Source: Betaproteobacteria bacterium | Lineage (GTDB): Bacteria > Pseudomonadota > Gammaproteobacteria > Burkholderiales > SG8-39 | Direction of reading: 5' to 3' | Assembly (NCBI GenBank): GCA_009693435.1 | Contig: SHXF01000139.1 | Coordinates: forward strand, 1 to 9,721 | Length of the DNA stretch: 9,721 nt | In this document: positions 2,454-9,560 of the stretch, piece by piece | Layout of the letters: every line of letters begins with the position of its first letter | Position numbering within the stretch: the first letter of the stretch is position 1 | Notes under the pieces: generated by a model | What the model was told of the DNA's origin: nothing | Databases searched by the model: none | The model's input: only the letters and a program-made list of their open reading frames with translations | Position numbers and translations under genes: made by a program

Positions 2454-2507
2454 CCACCCGTGCGGATTGCGCACTGACCAGTGTTTGTCGAGTGGCAGTG
2501 GTGGTCA
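2449..2507. repeat. Short direct and inverted repeats at the IS630 breakpoint
   Basis: ACTGACCA occurs at 2449-2456 and again at 2473-2480, 24 bp apart. TGACCACC (2451-2458) faces GGTGGTCA (2500-2507) as an 8-bp inverted repeat. The block begins where transposase similarity ends, so it may be the terminus of a second mobile element that replaced the IS630 C-terminus. The repeats are short, so this is tentative. Confidence 0.3.
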
Positions 2508-2589
2508 ATCGCAGATCGGCACAACCTGCCGAAACTGATCAATTTCGAATCGGTGGTAACATGCGCCATTCCATCGCCTTCCGAGCGGC

Positions 2590-2619
2590 TTGCTTTGCTG
2601 ACGGCCAAACGCGGATAAT
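2590..2619 (+). promoter_or_regulatory. Candidate sigma-70 promoter for the plus-strand Bug/CoA-transferase cluster
   Basis: A TTGCTT box at 2590-2595 and a GATAAT box at 2614-2619 are separated by 18 bp and lie about 40 bp before the chosen start of the Bug gene. They fit a -35/-10 pair in the only stretch between the IS remnant and the first gene. A 10-bp direct repeat, GGATAATGCG, recurs at 2613-2622 and 2673-2682. The assignment is by consensus only. Confidence 0.35.
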
Positions 2620-2659
2620 GCGTATCGAACCGACCCGAACTCCAGGACCTACCGCTATC

Positions 2660-3646
2660 ATGCGCAAATTCGGGATAATGCGCTTGCTGCGCACGCTTTG
2701 CACGGCGATCCTCGCTGCCGCAGTAGCCTGTCCCTGTTCAGTTGCCGGCCAGGAATACCCTGCGAAGCCCATCCGGCTGATCGTTCCATTTCCGCCCGGC
2801 GGCGGCACGGACATCCTCGCGCGCCTTGTCGGCCAGAGGCTCACCGAGAGCCTGGGCCGCACGGTCATCGTTGACAATCGCCCCGGTGCGGGCGGCAACC
2901 TCGGCGCCGAACTCGCAGCCAAGGCATCTCCGGACGGCTATTCGCTGTTGATGGTGTCCGCGAGCTACGCGGTCAATGCGACTCTGTACAAACTGGCGTT
3001 CGATCCGTTGCGCGACCTCGCACCCGTCACATTGGTGGCGAATGTGCCGTTTGCCCTCGTCGCAAACCCTGCGCTGCCAGCCGCAACCATAAAGGAGCTT
3101 GTCGCGCTCGCACAAGCAAGACCGGGCGAGATCAACTATGCTTCGTCGGGCAACGGTTCCGCCCCGCACCTGGCCGGCGAATTGTTCACCATGATGACCC
3201 ACACGCGCATGGTTCATGTACCTTACAAGGGCGGTGCGCCCGCGCTGACGGATGTGCTGGGCGGGCAAGTGCAGCTGCTGGTCAGCACCGCGGTCCAGGC
3301 ACTGCCATTTATTAAGTCAGGCAGACTGAAAGCGCTCGGAATATGCGGCCGCAGTCGCTCTGCGGTCCTGCCCGCGGTACCCACCATCGACGAGTCCGGC
3401 GTTCCCGGCTACGACATAAGCAACTGGTTCGGAATACTCGCTCCGAGGCAGACACCGGTGGCCATCGTTGCACGATTGAACAGGGAGATCCTACGGCAGT
3501 TGCAAAGCGACGACCTGAAAGCGCGGTTCGCGACCGATGGCGCCGAAGCCGCCGGCAGCAGCGCCGCGGATTTCGAGCGCGTGATCCGCGCCGACATTGA
3601 TAAATTCGCCCGCATCGTCAAAGCCGCTGGCATCCGAATCAACTGA
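2660..3646 (+). CDS. Bug/TctC-type periplasmic solute-binding protein
   Basis: This 328-residue solute receptor of the tripartite tricarboxylate transporter type has every family block intact: YPAKPIRLIVPFPPGGGTD just after the signal peptide, DNRPGAGGNLGAEL, SPDGYSLL, GNGSAPHLAGELF, HVPYKGGAPALTDVLGG, PTIDESGVPGYD and a C-terminal KAAGIRIN. The signal peptide is basic then hydrophobic and ends near SVAGQ. The frame stays open upstream to 2492, but that extension carries no signal sequence. I prefer the ATG at 2660 (AGGA about 12 bases upstream); the ATG at 2678 is a credible alternative. It leads a plus-strand series with a CoA-transferase 52 bp downstream and a hot-dog dehydratase after that, suggesting that it captures the acid those enzymes then process. 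The ligand cannot be read from sequence. Confidence 0.9.
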   Translation: MRKFGIMRLLRTLCTAILAAAVACPCSVAGQEYPAKPIRLIVPFPPGGGTDILARLVGQRLTESLGRTVIVDNRPGAGGNLGAELAAKASPDGYSLLMVSASYAVNATLYKLAFDPLRDLAPVTLVANVPFALVANPALPAATIKELVALAQARPGEINYASSGNGSAPHLAGELFTMMTHTRMVHVPYKGGAPALTDVLGGQVQLLVSTAVQALPFIKSGRLKALGICGRSRSAVLPAVPTIDESGVPGYDISNWFGILAPRQTPVAIVARLNREILRQLQSDDLKARFATDGAEAAGSSAADFERVIRADIDKFARIVKAAGIRIN

Positions 3647-3698: not shown

Positions 3699-4958
3699 AT
3701 GACAGTCACTGTAAAACCAAAACAGAGTGCGCGCCGCGGCCCACTGACAGGCGTCCGCGTACTCGATCTTTCGCGGGTCCTCGCCGGTCCGTTCTGCTCG
3801 ATGATCCTGGCCGATCTCGGTGCAGAAGTGATCAAGATCGAGGAAATCGGCGTCGGCGACCAGACGCGCACCATCCCGCCGTTCGTCAACGGCGAGAGCC
3901 ATTATTTTCTCGCCATCAACCGCAACAAGAAAAGCGTCGCGCTCGATGCCCGCACCGAGGAAGGACGCGATGTTCTGCTCAAACTCGCTAAGCGCTGCGA
4001 TGTGGTGCTGGAGAACTTCCGGCCCGGCGTCATGGATCGGCTGGGCCTGGGTTACGAGCGGCTGAAAGCGCTGAAACCCGGGATCATCGTTTGCTCGATC
4101 AGCGGATTCGGAGCGGTAGGATCGATGCGCGACAAGCCATCGTTCGATCTCGTCACTCAGGCGCTGAGCGGTGTAATGAGCATCAACGGCTACGCGGACG
4201 GACCGCCGACCAAGCTCGGGTTGCCGCTCGGCGACATCGGCGGCGGGATGTGGGCAGCGATCGGCGTGCTGGCCGCGATCAACGAGCGCAATACGACAGG
4301 GCGCGGCTCCCGCATCGATCTCAGTCTGCTCGAAGGCCTGATGGGCCTGCTCGGATACCTTGCCGAAATCTTCCTGGTCACCGGCGAGAATCCCGGCCGG
4401 ATGGGCAACAGCCACCACAACATCGTGCCCTACGGCCTGATGACGGTGAAGGACGGGCACATCGTGCTGGCGCTGCATGTGGGTGGATTCTGGCGCAAGT
4501 TCTGCAAGGCCATAGGACGCACGGACCTGATCACGGACCCGCGCTTCAAGACCGTCAAAGACCGGCACCAGAACCGCGCCGAGCTGGAGCGTATGCTGGG
4601 CGAGATCATGCTGACCCGCACGGTGACCGAGTGGCAAACGATCCTCGACGCGGCGGACGTGCCCCATGGCCCGGTGAACAACATTGGCCAGGCGCTCGAC
4701 CAGGCGATCATTCGGGAAAGCGGGTTCCTGCAGGAGACCCGCCACCCCACCGCCGGTACGGTGAAAGTGCTCGGCTGTCCAGTACGTTTCCCCGGCCAGT
4801 TCGCCGCTGTTCAGATCGACCCTCCGCCGCTGTTGGGCGAGCACACGCGCGAAGTGCTCGCATCGCTGGCGGGCCTCGGCGAGGCCGAGATCACGCACCT
4901 GATCGACTCCGGCAAGGCCGCCACCCCCGACAGCGTGCGAGCCAAAGCGCAAGTCTGA
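3699..4958 (+). CDS. CaiB/BaiF-family (class III) CoA-transferase
   Basis: This 419-residue enzyme transfers CoA between a donor acyl-CoA and a carboxylic acid, through an aspartyl-CoA mixed anhydride in family members such as formyl-CoA transferase. The N-terminal signature GVRVLDLSRVLAGPFCSMI (residues 18-36), LGAEVIKIE (40-48), NRNKKSVALD (74-83) and ENFRPGVMDRLGLGY (105-119) are all present. The likely catalytic aspartate is D179 in LGDIGGGMWA, the position equivalent to Asp169 of formyl-CoA transferase. The PSFDLVTQALSGVM segment and the C-terminal PPLLGEHTREVL block are also typical, and length is normal. The ATG follows GGAG with a five-base spacer. It sits between a Bug receptor and a MaoC-like dehydratase, so its substrate is probably the imported acid and its product the next enzyme's substrate. 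Specificity is unknown; citramalate- or mesaconate-type acids are only one possibility. Confidence 0.93.
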   Translation: MTVTVKPKQSARRGPLTGVRVLDLSRVLAGPFCSMILADLGAEVIKIEEIGVGDQTRTIPPFVNGESHYFLAINRNKKSVALDARTEEGRDVLLKLAKRCDVVLENFRPGVMDRLGLGYERLKALKPGIIVCSISGFGAVGSMRDKPSFDLVTQALSGVMSINGYADGPPTKLGLPLGDIGGGMWAAIGVLAAINERNTTGRGSRIDLSLLEGLMGLLGYLAEIFLVTGENPGRMGNSHHNIVPYGLMTVKDGHIVLALHVGGFWRKFCKAIGRTDLITDPRFKTVKDRHQNRAELERMLGEIMLTRTVTEWQTILDAADVPHGPVNNIGQALDQAIIRESGFLQETRHPTAGTVKVLGCPVRFPGQFAAVQIDPPPLLGEHTREVLASLAGLGEAEITHLIDSGKAATPDSVRAKAQV

Positions 4959-5037: not shown

Positions 5038-6186
5038 ATGCCAGCAGAACACGGCCTTGCCACCGACGCGGAACTGGAACGCATCCGCGCCAAAATCGGA
5101 CACAAGGTCACCATCAACGAGCCGCCCTACCTGACCGAGGTCACGCGCGACTCGATCCGCCACTGGGCCCAGGCCACCGGCGACCGCAATCCCCTGTACC
5201 TCGACGAGGCCCATGCCCGCGCATCGCGCCATGGCGGCTTGATCGCCCCGCCCTGCCAGCTTTATGCCTTCAGCCGGATTTCGATCGGCTACCGCGGAGG
5301 CTTGCCCGGCGTGCATTCCTTCTTCGCCGGCTCGCACTGGCGCTGGCATGAACCGATACGTCTGGGCGAGCGCATCGCTCCGGAGGTGACCTTCAAGGAC
5401 CTGGTGGAACTGCCGAGCCGCTTCGCCGGACGCATGTTCAAGCAGATCTCGCTGATCAGTTTTCCGGGCAGCGACGGCCATGAACTGGCGCAGGCCGAGT
5501 CGTGGGGCATGCGTGTCGAGCGCACTGCGGCCAAGGAGAAAGGCAAATACAATAAAGTTGAGTTGGCGACGCCCTACACCACACAGCAGTTGGACGAAAT
5601 AGCACAGCGCTATGCCGAGGAAAAATGCCGCGGCGCAGAACCCCTGCATTTCGAGGATGTCGCAATCGGCCAGCCGCTGCCACAAATCGTGCGCGGTCCG
5701 TACACGGCGACGACCGCAGTCGCCTTCGAACAGGGATGGGGCGGACTGTTCATCAAGGCACACGGATACTGGTTCGACTATCTGCGCCGTCACCCGGCTG
5801 CCGGCATCCCCAATGCATACAATATTCCGGAGCCCCCCGAGGCCGTGCACTGGGATTCGGCGCTGGCGCGCGCTGTCGGCGTACCCGAAGCCTACGACTA
5901 TGGCCCGGAGCGGATTGCCTGGCTCGCCACCATGCTGACCAACTGGATCGGCGACGATGGGTTCCTCGCCGAACTGTACTGCGAAGTGCGGCGCTTCAAC
6001 CTGATCGGCGATCTCACCTATTGCCGTGGCACGGTCGTGTCGAAGGAGGACCGTGACGCCGGTTCAGGCACGGTCAAGCTGGAGATCGAGGCGGTCGATC
6101 AGCGCGGCGATGCGACTGCCGGCGGTTGGGCACAAGTGACGCTGCCGCGGCGGAGCAGCAAGCAGGCACACCGGCGGTCAGGCTGA
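5038..6186 (+). CDS. Double hot-dog MaoC/FAS1-type enoyl-CoA hydratase (dehydratase)
   Basis: These 382 residues carry two hot-dog folds. The N-terminal FAS1-type dehydratase region spans about residues 15-165, with WAQATGDRNPLYLDEAHAR (43-61) and GGLIAPPCQLYA (66-77). The C-terminal MaoC-like region spans about 200-372, with the putative H-x-D catalytic pair at HWD 271-273 and YGPERIAWLATMLTNWIGDDGFL after it. Such proteins hydrate or dehydrate acyl-CoA intermediates. The gene lies 79 bp after the CoA-transferase in the same direction, with AAGGA eight bases before the ATG, which supports a shared acyl-CoA pathway. The last ten residues (SSKQAHRRSG, from residue 373) are encoded by DNA that is antisense Bug-gene sequence, so the original C-terminus seems to have been replaced. 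The core reads intact and the enzyme is probably functional. The substrate is not identifiable. Confidence 0.88.
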   Translation: MPAEHGLATDAELERIRAKIGHKVTINEPPYLTEVTRDSIRHWAQATGDRNPLYLDEAHARASRHGGLIAPPCQLYAFSRISIGYRGGLPGVHSFFAGSHWRWHEPIRLGERIAPEVTFKDLVELPSRFAGRMFKQISLISFPGSDGHELAQAESWGMRVERTAAKEKGKYNKVELATPYTTQQLDEIAQRYAEEKCRGAEPLHFEDVAIGQPLPQIVRGPYTATTAVAFEQGWGGLFIKAHGYWFDYLRRHPAAGIPNAYNIPEPPEAVHWDSALARAVGVPEAYDYGPERIAWLATMLTNWIGDDGFLAELYCEVRRFNLIGDLTYCRGTVVSKEDRDAGSGTVKLEIEAVDQRGDATAGGWAQVTLPRRSSKQAHRRSG

Positions 6187-6325
6187 CGCCGCTGAAGTCT
6201 TTGACTGGATCGTACGGCACGACGGGCAGGACGGCGGCGGTAGACGCAAACTTACTTGCGACAGATAGGTAGGTATAACCGTCGGGTGCCGCCTTGGCGA
6301 CGAATTCGGTGCCGGCAATGCCACT
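6164..6325 (-). pseudogene. Internal fragment of a Bug/TctC solute-binding protein
   Basis: On the minus strand about 54 codons read as the middle of domain 1 of a Bug protein: GIAGTEFVAKAAPDGYTYL, then SVASKFASTAAVLP, VPYDPVKDFSGVSLTAGVP. They match the family order seen in the three intact paralogues here (GxxGTxxVAxxxPDGYTLL ... YDPxKDFxxVxLxxxVP). The signal peptide, PPGG motif and whole C-terminal half are absent, and no ribosome-binding site is seen. It sits between two convergent genes. One end overlaps the 3' end of the dehydratase and the other lies about 10 bp from the stop of the 371-residue protein. It is not a recent copy of the intact Bug genes in the window, since residues differ at many positions. 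I read it as a deletion scar. Confidence 0.8.
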
Positions 6326-6335
6326 TTTTGAAATC

Positions 6336-7451
6336 TTACGTTCGCCGCAATTCCTGAACCGAACCGACAAACCGCCCATCGTGGTGCCGCAGCGCCAGAG
6401 TCACCGAACGCGTCACGCCGAAAGTCGGGATGAAAGCCGAGTGCTTGCCCGCGCCGCCCACCACAACCAGCAGGAAATCCTCCGGCTTCTGCGCCACCGG
6501 TACGCGCGCATCCGGACCAGCGCTGCCGAGGCGCTCGGGGAATTTCAAACGCAGGCGCCGCTCGATATTCTCCTCGGAAAAACGCTCCAGCGAGACCCAC
6601 GCGTGTTCCCACAGGTAGCGTCTGGCATCGGTTTTCGAGTAGCCTCCTCGCGCAACCGTCGCGGCATGCTCGGGACTGAAGGCGATCACTGGCTCGCCGG
6701 AGTAGGCAATGTCGTTGGTGCCGGGGGTCGCCGTTGTCGCGGCTATCATCCGCAGAATGCCCTCGGCGGTAGTGCTCTCATGATCGTTGACGTTATGCGG
6801 TGCTTCTGCGCCTACCAGGGTCACCGTGCTCACATCCATCGCAAAACCGCGCTCGACGTGCAGCGGCTCCCACGGGCTCTCCTGTTCGTTTTCGGCGATG
6901 CAGTAACTAAACTTCGCCGGCGAGCCGAACGTGGCCATATCGCCGGTACCCGGCACCGCTCCGCCGATGTTCACCAGCGCCAGCCGGATCGCGCGGCCAA
7001 TCGTCGAATTGCTCTGCCGTCCCGGCCCGAACGCGTTGTGCCCGGCATTAATGTTGAGTTCCCTCGCCACCGGTCCGTTGACGATCAGCAGCGGCGCGCA
7101 CAAATGAGTCGTCGCCTGGATTCCGTACAGATTGAACGATTCCACGCACATTGCCTCGACGGCCAGCATGACCAGCGGAAAATATTCCGGCCGGCATCCC
7201 GCCATCACCGCGTTCGCGGCCAACCGCCAGGGCGTCGCTTCACCCCAGCGAGGGGGCATGAACCCGATCGGCTGGTTCCACGGACGATCGCAATATTCGA
7301 GCATCTGCTCGACGCGGCGCAGGCTGGGCGGCATGATCGGCAACCCGTCACCCCATCCGCGCTCCAGAAACAATTCGTTCAACGCCTGGAAATCGTCTTC
7401 CGCCGTAAAGCTCACGCCGGGATCGCCCAGCAGATGCGTCAATTCGCTCAT
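6336..7451 (-). CDS. Conserved GWGDGLP-type protein of unknown function, coupled to a UGSC selenoprotein
   Basis: This 371-residue soluble-looking protein has no signal peptide or membrane segment. I recognise the family by its motifs but know no established reaction for it: ERGWGDGLPIMPP (30-42), NAVMAGCRPEY (80-90), QATTHLCAPLLIVNGP (112-127), the glycine-rich NIGGAVPGTGD (161-171), SPWEPLHVERGF (192-203) and VGGAGKHSAFIPTFG (331-345). Cysteines are at 54, 86, 102, 118 and 184; C86 and C118 lie within these motifs. Its ATG (7449-7451) overlaps the TGA stop of the upstream UGSC gene as ATGA, and no separate strong ribosome-binding site is evident, pointing to translational coupling and a joint function with that redox protein. 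A role in thiol/selenol chemistry on the ligand of the upstream Bug receptor is inference from context. The sequence looks complete, ending just before a Bug-gene scrap. Confidence 0.7.
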   Translation of the reverse strand: MSELTHLLGDPGVSFTAEDDFQALNELFLERGWGDGLPIMPPSLRRVEQMLEYCDRPWNQPIGFMPPRWGEATPWRLAANAVMAGCRPEYFPLVMLAVEAMCVESFNLYGIQATTHLCAPLLIVNGPVARELNINAGHNAFGPGRQSNSTIGRAIRLALVNIGGAVPGTGDMATFGSPAKFSYCIAENEQESPWEPLHVERGFAMDVSTVTLVGAEAPHNVNDHESTTAEGILRMIAATTATPGTNDIAYSGEPVIAFSPEHAATVARGGYSKTDARRYLWEHAWVSLERFSEENIERRLRLKFPERLGSAGPDARVPVAQKPEDFLLVVVGGAGKHSAFIPTFGVTRSVTLALRHHDGRFVGSVQELRRT

Positions 7452-7990
7452 CGCGTAAAATTACGGATCAGATCGAGCAGTTGCGGAAGCGCGTGCTCGG
7501 CGCGCGATTTGACTTCAGACATGGCAAGGCCGCCCAACGGATGAGGAATGACGATCAAAGTCATATCCGGCACACCGAAAACCCCCGCCTGCGTTCTCGC
7601 CAGATTCAGAAAGGCTTCGGAACAAACCACCGCGGTCATCGGCCCGCGGCGCCGGAGCTCGGCCATGTCGTGGACACTCCACGACGTGCACGCACCTCAG
7701 TCCGCCATTGCGCTGACGACGAGGTCTGCCTCCGCGGCGAGCTGATCGAGTAGCATCGGGTCCGCCGCGGCCGCGGAGTTCGGCTTGCGCAGCGAACTCA
7801 ACGAACCGATGGGAAGTGCCGCGCGCGATCCTTCGATCAGGAGCGCCAGCAGATGATCTGCATTACCCTTGCTGTTGTCGAGCACGCCCAATCGAATACC
7901 GGCGCCACCATCATACTTGCGCACGCCGATCTTCGCGGGGCGTTGCCGCGGCGGCGCCTCGGGCACGATGAATATATCGCTATTGCTCAA
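7448..7990 (-). CDS. UGSC-family selenoprotein with in-frame UGA read as selenocysteine
   Basis: These 180 residues are read through an in-frame TGA at 7697-7699 (residue 98). The two halves share one frame, and together they give LGVLDNSKGNAD (34-45), ADLVVSAMAD-U-GACTSWSVHDMAELRRRG and AVVCSEAF (120-127), then VIPHPLGGL (147-155). This is the order of the UGSC protein family, whose redox motif is [U/C]-G-S-C-T; here it is U98-G-A-C101-T, with alanine for serine. The start is TTG at 7988-7990, chosen for a perfect GGAGGT six bases upstream. No ATG lies between it and the end of the preceding Bug gene, and an ATG further upstream would overlap that gene entirely. The gene follows the Bug receptor by 61 bp and overlaps the next gene by ATGA. 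The biochemical role is unknown; a thiol/selenol redox function is inferred from the motif. The alternative is a nonsense mutation, made unlikely by the exact motif position and the adjacent SECIS-like hairpin. Confidence 0.85.
7667..7699 (-). promoter_or_regulatory. Sec UGA codon with bacterial SECIS-like hairpin
   Basis: On the minus strand the TGA (7699-7697) is followed after 11 nt by GTCGTGGA, loop GTG, TCCACGAC (7685-7667), a perfect 8-bp stem with a three-base loop. The loop begins 19-20 nt after the UGA, and G is among the first loop bases. Both fit the general bacterial SECIS pattern (apical loop roughly 16-37 nt downstream, G early in the loop). The hairpin lies inside the coding sequence for residues SWSVHD, so it serves both protein and RNA. 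SelB binding is inferred, not shown. Confidence 0.75.
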
Positions 7991-8002
7991 GATATGACCT
8001 CC
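7991..8002 (-). promoter_or_regulatory. Strong Shine-Dalgarno that decides a TTG start
   Basis: The minus strand reads GGAGGTCATATC immediately before TTG at 7990-7988. The GGAGGT core with six bases of spacing fixes translation start at a non-ATG codon and separates the UGSC reading frame from the overlapping 3' end of the Bug gene. Confidence 0.65.
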
Positions 8003-8051: not shown

Positions 8052-9017
8052 TTACTCCATCCTGATACCAACCTCGCGCGCAAGCTTGCCCTTGGTTTCG
8101 AATTCAGCTTTGATATACGCAGCGAATTCCTCCGGCGACGCGCTGGCGGCAAGATCCACACCGCGCTCAACGTAGCGCTTGTGCAATTCAGGCAGGCGCA
8201 CCACGCGCGCCACTTCGCTTTGCAGCCTGACCAGCACCTCACGCGGCGTGCCTGCGGGCGCCATCAAACCATTGAAAGTGATGTCTTCAAAGCCTTTGAG
8301 CCCGGATTCGTCAATGGTTGGAATATTTGGAAACATCGGCGCGCGCTTGAGGCTGGTTAGCCCCAGCGCGCGCACCTTGCCCGACGCAATGTGCGGCGCC
8401 GAGGGCCCCAGTTGGTCGAACATGAGTTGCACATTGCCGCTGATGACATCGATCAGTGCGGGCGCCGCGCCCTTGTACGGCACATGCAGCATTTTGATGC
8501 CGGCCTGACGGCTGAACAACTCGCCCGCGAAATGGCCCGTGCCGCCAGTGCCGCCTGAGCCGTACGCCAGTTGCCCTGGTCTTGATTTGGCGAGCGCGAT
8601 GAATTCCTTCACGGTGCGCACCGGCAGCGCCGGATTAACTTCCAGCACCTGCGGCACCAGGCAGGTCAACGTCACCGCCGCAAAGTCCTTGATGGGATCG
8701 TATCCCGCGGTGGGCATGATAGGCGGCACCGTGGCAAAAGTGTTGGCCATCGCGAGCAGCGTATAGCCGTCGGGCGCGCTGCGCGCCACCATCTGCGTGC
8801 CCACGATACTGCTCGCGCTGGGCCGGTTGTCGACGATCACCTGCTGGCCGAATTTTTCGCTCATGGCTTGTGCCACCCCGCGTACCACGAAATCCACATT
8901 GCCGCCGGGCGCCACCGGCACGATGATGCGTATGGCTTTGGCGGGGTAGTTCTGCGCCGCGACCTGGATTGAAGCCAACGACGCGCACGCTGCGGACAAC
9001 AAGATCATATTTTTCAC
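8052..9017 (-). CDS. Bug/TctC-type periplasmic solute-binding protein leading the UGSC operon
   Basis: This is a 321-residue solute receptor of the tripartite tricarboxylate transporter family. The signal peptide is about residues 1-21, ending IQVAAQ. Family blocks are YPAKAIRIIVPVAPGGNVD, DNRPSASSIVGTQMVA, APDGYTLL, YDPIKDFAAVTL, GTGGTGHFAGELF, HVPYKGAAPALIDVISG, PTIDESGLKGFED and a C-terminal EVGIRME. The start is GTG at 9015-9017, with GGAGG four bases upstream; the ATG three codons later is placed less well. The first loop reads VAPGG rather than FPPGG, a common variation. It is the first gene of the minus-strand cluster, with the UGSC selenoprotein starting 61 bp after its stop. It probably delivers the compound that the two downstream proteins act on. 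The ligand is unknown and no transporter membrane subunits are present in the window. Confidence 0.9.
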   Translation of the reverse strand: MKNMILLSAACASLASIQVAAQNYPAKAIRIIVPVAPGGNVDFVVRGVAQAMSEKFGQQVIVDNRPSASSIVGTQMVARSAPDGYTLLAMANTFATVPPIMPTAGYDPIKDFAAVTLTCLVPQVLEVNPALPVRTVKEFIALAKSRPGQLAYGSGGTGGTGHFAGELFSRQAGIKMLHVPYKGAAPALIDVISGNVQLMFDQLGPSAPHIASGKVRALGLTSLKRAPMFPNIPTIDESGLKGFEDITFNGLMAPAGTPREVLVRLQSEVARVVRLPELHKRYVERGVDLAASASPEEFAAYIKAEFETKGKLAREVGIRME

Positions 9018-9471: not shown

Positions 9472-9560
9472 GGCTCTGTCGCATTAAGCAATTTACGCCA
9501 GAAATTCCTTAATGAAATCAATGCCAATTTCTATCCTCTAGTCCTTAATGCGACAGAGCC
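9472..9560. mobile_element. MITE-like 89-bp unit with perfect 17-bp terminal inverted repeats
   Basis: GGCTCTGTCGCATTAAG at 9472-9488 is the exact reverse complement of CTTAATGCGACAGAGCC at 9544-9560. The 55-bp interior is AT-rich and non-coding. It contains a TCCTTAATG copy (9506-9514) that repeats part of the right end (9542-9550), and a small dyad AGAAATT/AATTTCT. The ends resemble IS terminal repeats beginning GG-[CT]-x-CTGT, such as those of IS6-like elements, but I cannot name the parent. No target duplication is visible: the flanks differ (CCGTGTGG and GCGCGATA). Its right end coincides with the point where an IS3 transposase loses similarity. Confidence 0.6.

Follow-up and report, generated by a model that had tools for sequence, protein, structure and literature searches.

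The stretch of DNA analysed here (9,721 nucleotides from a betaproteobacterium, called the window below) very probably carries the gene of a selenoprotein of the UGSC family, in which an in-frame TGA encodes selenocysteine (Sec). A preliminary description, made from the sequence alone, had proposed a probable UGSC-family selenoprotein with Sec98, and this proposal is supported by the match to the Pfam family PF24696, by the conservation of the TGA, by a hairpin downstream of it and by covariation within that hairpin. Since UGSC has been in print as a selenoprotein family since at least 2008 (PMC2398784, in the part of the text available), the gene adds one member to a known family. The points that go beyond the preliminary description, namely an expansion of the family, a partner protein that we named U1 and an apparent distant link to the glycine reductase GrdB, matter more than the gene itself.

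The window holds the following features:

2492..3646, plus strand: second TctC-type solute-binding protein (PF03401, 237 bits), whose true start is probably downstream of the listed one
3699..4958, plus strand: CoA-transferase family III, CaiB-like (PF02515)
5038..6186, plus strand: MaoC / FAS1-like dehydratase (PF13452, PF01575), convergent with the UGSC-U1 pair
6074..6379, minus strand: TctC gene remnant, a 101-residue ORF between U1 and MaoC (PF03401, 34.8 bits, positions 21-88 of 274)
6336..7451, minus strand: U1, a 371-residue partner protein that matches no Pfam or NCBIfam family
7448..7990, minus strand: probable UGSC-family selenoprotein gene, 180 residues with Sec98, TTG start and terminal TGA (PF24696, 130.9 bits)
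7667..7685, minus strand: candidate bacterial SECIS-type hairpin
7688..7690, minus strand: codon of Cys101 in the UxxC motif
7697..7699, minus strand: in-frame TGA, codon 98, very probably read as selenocysteine
7998..8002, minus strand: GGAGG, putative ribosome-binding site for TTG 7990
8052..9017, minus strand: TctC/Bug-type solute-binding protein just upstream of UGSC (PF03401, 235.7 bits)

Besides these, a short ORF at 2196-2453 has helix-turn-helix matches (PF13551, 45.9 bits) and resembles the start of an IS630-type transposase. At 9474-9558, ctctgtcgcattaa and its own reverse complement face each other with about 57 bases between them, and this inverted pair is possibly the end of a mobile element.

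A UGSC gene divided by an in-frame TGA

On the minus strand, the frame opens with TTG at 7990, runs for 97 codons to the TGA at 7699-7697 and continues for 82 further codons to a stop TGA at 7450-7448, where U1, with its ATG at 7451, overlaps it by 4 bases. The coordinates, phase and lengths previously given for two same-phase frames split only by this TGA proved exact. Ordinary gene calling gives two ORFs, as had been anticipated: a 72-residue one from ATG 7666, the 11th codon past the TGA, and a truncated upstream one. As listed mechanically, the upstream ORF starts at GTG 8242 (181 amino acids), a position that falls within the adjacent TctC. For UGSC the start TTG 7990 is preferable, and the GGAGG upstream likely serves it as a ribosome-binding site. 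Frame adjacency alone is weak proof of readthrough, because seven TGAs in this GC-rich window have more than 80 open codons on each side.

When the readthrough product was compared with PF24696 (cut-off 25 bits), its residues 27-175 aligned with profile positions 22-170 of 172. The two halves searched singly fell on complementary parts of the profile, the upstream half on positions 22-92 with 38.9 bits and the downstream half on positions 106-170 with 50.2 bits, in agreement with the claim that conserved family blocks lie on either side of the TGA. Judged by these matches, homology spanning the TGA goes beyond chance, unlike frame adjacency. The sole NCBIfam match of the readthrough protein at E 0.001 was the UGSC equivalog NF041046, with 118.3 bits, which is 6.7 below the curated cut-off of 125. 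Ten relatives were compared with the same model; eight passed, two fell short at 121.0 and 124.2, and the six closer relatives among those tested scored 121-131. The gene belongs to the Pfam UGSC family and is not filed as an NF041046 equivalog. It resembles the known family in its whole-length Pfam match, in the Sec at the first motif position and in the candidate SECIS element downstream, and differs from it in the score below the NF041046 cut-off and in a motif that reads U-G-A-C, not U-G-S-C. Among 81 close genes including that of the window, the motif continues with GSC in 67, GAC in 13 and GGC in one. Cys101, which is invariant in an alignment of 58 sequences (A4), is likely the resolving cysteine of the UxxC motif.

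Relatives were collected by scanning contigs of reference genomes with search patterns that exclude the Sec codon, and the best 80 of 155 were taken. Together with the window and 30 more divergent stretches from four genomes, the latter being the best-scoring matches of a wider list that includes a few fragments without the TGA, they make up 111 gene stretches. In every one of the 111 the single internal stop is a TGA, and GSC, GAC or GGC comes after it. The preliminary description had placed the TGA on the redox position of the family and had named homologues with neither Sec nor Cys there as counter-evidence; we found TGA at the motif in all 111 stretches and Cys in one database homologue, P0005. 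Annotation cuts UGSC genes, as 97 of 114 protein-database homologues end at the Sec codon according to the script pattern. The others comprise P0005, one homologue with Trp (P0002) and a rest class of 15, at least two of which (P0109 and P0110) seem to stop at the Sec codon too. In the survey of GOS sequences, UGSC homologues with Sec numbered 255 and those with Cys 21 (PMC2398784, available part).

Some of these records are peculiar in themselves. The Trp of P0002 is either a real TGG or a TGA translated with another code. In P0103, which is listed on 5 contigs, and in P0004, part of UGSC is joined in frame to part of U1, as by an internal deletion. The loci L019, L045, L049, L055, L060, L070, L079 and L080 come from metagenome-assembled genomes (MAGs) titled Bordetella parapertussis, and their UGSC genes resemble those of MAGs from environmental Betaproteobacteria; the species name appears to be mistaken.

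The hairpin and the reading of the TGA

Bacterial SECIS elements are described as having an apical loop of 3-9 nt, a stem of 4-16 bp, a G in the first two loop positions, a distance of 16-37 nt from the UGA and a minimum free energy of at most -7.5 (PMC13188914, in the part of the article accessible). The hairpin of the window lies within these limits, with a 3-nt loop (GUG), an 8 bp stem, a TGA-to-loop distance of 19 nt and -12.6 kcal/mol. When compared with 200 dinucleotide shuffles, the whole 50-nt stretch that follows the TGA is of ordinary stability (z -0.91, with 31 shuffles as good), and for this reason we used a second control, synonymous recoding that keeps the peptide and follows the family's codon usage. 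The stability of the window hairpin was reached by 0.24% of 5000 such recodings. With 200 recodings for each gene, 105 of the 111 genes were at or under the 5% level and six missed it, four of them at 13-17%; all 111 reach -7.5.

Codon choice within the hairpin also appears constrained. All 81 close genes use AGT for Ser105, whereas AGT makes up 67 of 739 serine codons in the background. Codons 104 and 106 pair through their third bases in all 111 stretches, mostly as G-C and otherwise as C-G, the combinations being TGG with GTC, ATC or ACC, and TGC or GGC with GTG or CTG. Across 52 distinct rows the stem breaks only at its outermost pair (3 rows) or its innermost pair (1 row). The synonymous-site constraint, the compensatory changes and the hairpin support Sec insertion at the level of sequence. 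We consider it very probable that SelB with Sec-tRNA would decode the UGA at 7699-7697 as Sec98 under the direction of the hairpin at 7685-7667.

For 40 of the 80 loci, the genome of the relative was searched for the Sec machinery, which gave 40 genomes in all. selB was over the cut-off in 38 of them and selA in 37, and a tRNA-Sec exceeded the Rfam threshold in 38, with at least 70 bits in 36; the matches at about 47-50 bits could be long tRNAs of the ordinary kind. G001, the genome with the closest relative of the window gene (L001, 81% identity), has selA, selB, tRNA-Sec and a UGSC paralogue on one contig. From these genomes we infer that the organism of the window probably has the Sec machinery too.

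Three other accounts of the TGA have to be weighed against this reading. One is that an ancestral TGC or TGG turned into TGA in the window genome, by pseudogenization or sequencing error. In its favour, gene callers would give two short ORFs, P0005 has Cys and P0002 has Trp at the position, and decayed paralogues do exist (L182 and L184 in genome G013). We nevertheless regard this as very unlikely, given that all 111 stretches have the TGA there and no other stop, that both halves are conserved and that the hairpin is under constraint; a sequencing error is implausible because the TGA is present at the same codon in 80 other loci. The Trp of P0002 is also what a gene call under code 4 would print if this organism used UGA as a general Trp codon or had reassigned it in another way. 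But TctC_c, TctC_b, CaiB, MaoC and UGSC in the window all end with a TGA stop, P0005 has Cys at the aligned position, and selA, selB and tRNA-Sec are present in relatives, all of which makes a reassignment extremely unlikely.

Two separate proteins could arise by termination at the TGA and re-initiation at ATG 7666, from which the 72-residue ORF is open. However, the residues GxCTSWSVHD between the TGA and that ATG are among the most conserved, and the AlphaFold2 (AF2) model gives one domain in which strand 90-96 runs into helix 99-114, so that we hold this account to be highly improbable as well. We therefore keep to the reading of the UGA as Sec98.

The partner U1 and a possible distant relation to GrdB

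Scoring of 7997 candidates gave 7930 database relatives of U1, and U1 lies directly downstream of UGSC in 74 of the 80 loci. The loci without an adjacent U1 are L026, L043, L056, L061, L075 and L079; in L056, L061 and L075 a TctC gene directly follows UGSC. Eleven of the 30 divergent paralogues encode UGSC and U1 fused in a single frame of 529-536 residues. In the roughly 1.5 kb of flank fetched for the others, U1 was found close downstream of UGSC in eight and was not found in 11. By its description, the UGSC/Unknown_1 fusion, in which UGSC is joined to a second domain of unknown function (PMC2398784, available part), is like these fused paralogues, whose partner here is U1. The convergent arrangement of UGSC-U1 with MaoC and CaiB seen in the window recurs in L001 and L002. 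A close homologue of the second TctC of the window is present there too, on the far side of CaiB in L001 and in the gap between U1 and MaoC in L002, a gap that in the window is occupied by the TctC remnant at 6074-6379. A fold search with U1 gave no confident match, and its role is therefore a guess.

For UGSC itself, the AF2 model (with Cys replacing Sec) has a mean pLDDT of 90.5 and places Sec98 at the N-terminal end of a helix, right after the third, central strand, with Cys101 beside it. The solved structures listed as matches are of Rossmann, flavodoxin and receiver types, in a list from which absence leaves a thioredoxin topology possible. The predicted fold appears to be a Rossmann-like alpha/beta fold rather than a thioredoxin-like one, whereas a likely Trx-like fold had been suggested earlier for UGSC (PMC2398784, available part).

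Profile comparison with hhalign aligned UGSC with GrdB at E 1.2e-5, Sec on Sec, and with a score of 44.5, whereas the highest of 60 column-shuffled controls scored 24.9. Masking the Sec column lowered the score to 36.6, and taking out UGxC lowered it to 26.1 (E 0.0074), barely over the control maximum. The NCBI GrdB model TIGR01917 matched three of 10 UGSC relatives across the Sec site (E 6e-5 to 2e-4) with 20.2-22.2 bits, below the equivalog level of 602.2 bits, and matched neither the other seven relatives nor, at E 0.001, the window protein. At the same E-value the Pfam GrdB family PF07355 gave no match to the UGSC protein, which matched only UGSC, and UGSC showed no significant similarity to the short PrdB-like family (E 0.18). 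These profile links suggest that UGSC is distantly related to the selenocysteine half of GrdB without being a GrdB member. GrdB and the PrdB-like proteins share with UGSC a hydrophobic stretch before the Sec and similar blocks after it, and the UxxC spacing is common to three of eight full-length and all 11 short GRDB-type genes read here. In contrast to UGSC, the other five full-length genes lack the Cys of UxxC; UGSC differs from GrdB also in being less than half as long as full GrdB and in having no PF07355 match.

The GRDB-family genes just mentioned, 8 full-length and 11 short PrdB-like ones, lie in L111-L129 (for example L111:1501-2805 and L114:1501-2643). All 19 stop at a TGA beyond which in-frame conserved tails follow (UGxxx-R-x-G or UPNCT), and they are likely further selenoproteins, as these tails suggest.

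By analogy, we tentatively propose a GrdB-like mechanism that involves U1. The selenolate of Sec98 would attack a substrate activated by, or presented with, U1, as in GrdB/PrdB; a carbon-heteroatom bond would be cut reductively, and the resulting Sec-Cys selenenylsulfide would then be reduced, resetting the enzyme. The many paralogues with U1, and often with TctC nearby, would represent one module adapted to different substrates, and the copy in the window may be tied to a CoA pathway of CaiB and MaoC. A general thiol-disulfide (thioredoxin-like) redox function, an alternative that concerns the mechanism only and leaves the selenoprotein itself in place, is a possibility that we hold with equal reserve. 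The UxxC motif speaks for it, and UGSC is listed among redox selenoproteins in the available parts of PMC2398784 and PMC13188914. The fold types matched by the AF2 model, the position of Sec after the third strand and the profile links to GrdB speak against it, and enzymes specific for different substrates would better explain why a genome carries tens of divergent paralogues with an almost invariable partner. Given the link to GrdB and the nearly constant presence of U1, the GrdB-like mechanism is a testable enzymatic hypothesis for an uncharacterised selenoprotein family.

Expansion of UGSC in one betaproteobacterial family

The number of UGSC matches per genome ranged from 1 to 58 across the genomes of the 40 relatives. 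UGSC was present in all 74 genomes searched from the taxonomic family of G013, a betaproteobacterial one (at most 40 candidates scored per genome), and selA was over the cut-off in 67 of them. In an even draw across the class, UGSC was found in three of 274 genomes, one of them G013 (at most 12 candidates scored in each).

For G013, 56 of the 58 matches were listed, and 55 regions were fetched to cover them. A TGA at the U-G-x-C motif was found in 53 of the 55; the exceptions are L182, which is frameshifted and has a changed motif, and L184, which has neither TGA nor motif. Among the 53, two have a further stop and one is partial. Over 65 residues on each side of the Sec, the 53 proteins have a median pairwise identity of 27% and a maximum of 77% (25% and 72% with longer flanks), and since no pair reaches 90% identity or more, these paralogues are not strain duplicates. 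In their predicted structures, 50 of the 53 regions agree with the rules for distance, stem and loop G. G013 is a MAG in which contamination is possible, and selA is single-copy there.

The largest bacterial selenoproteomes are given as 57 and 63 genes, all families together (PMC13188914, accessible part), figures against which the 53 TGA-motif regions of G013 come from one family alone. Our literature search, which was incomplete in its coverage, found no report of a UGSC expansion. It is conceivable, although we hold it to be rather unlikely as a whole, that this is the largest known expansion of a single selenoprotein family, built up in one uncultured group of Betaproteobacteria, with tens of divergent UGSC-U1 selenoenzymes per genome that are distantly related to GrdB/PrdB, each with an uptake protein and a pathway of its own. 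If this were true, these bacteria would possess a selenium-dependent toolkit with which to degrade many organic acids reductively, and would do so without belonging to the classic anaerobic fermenters of amino acids.
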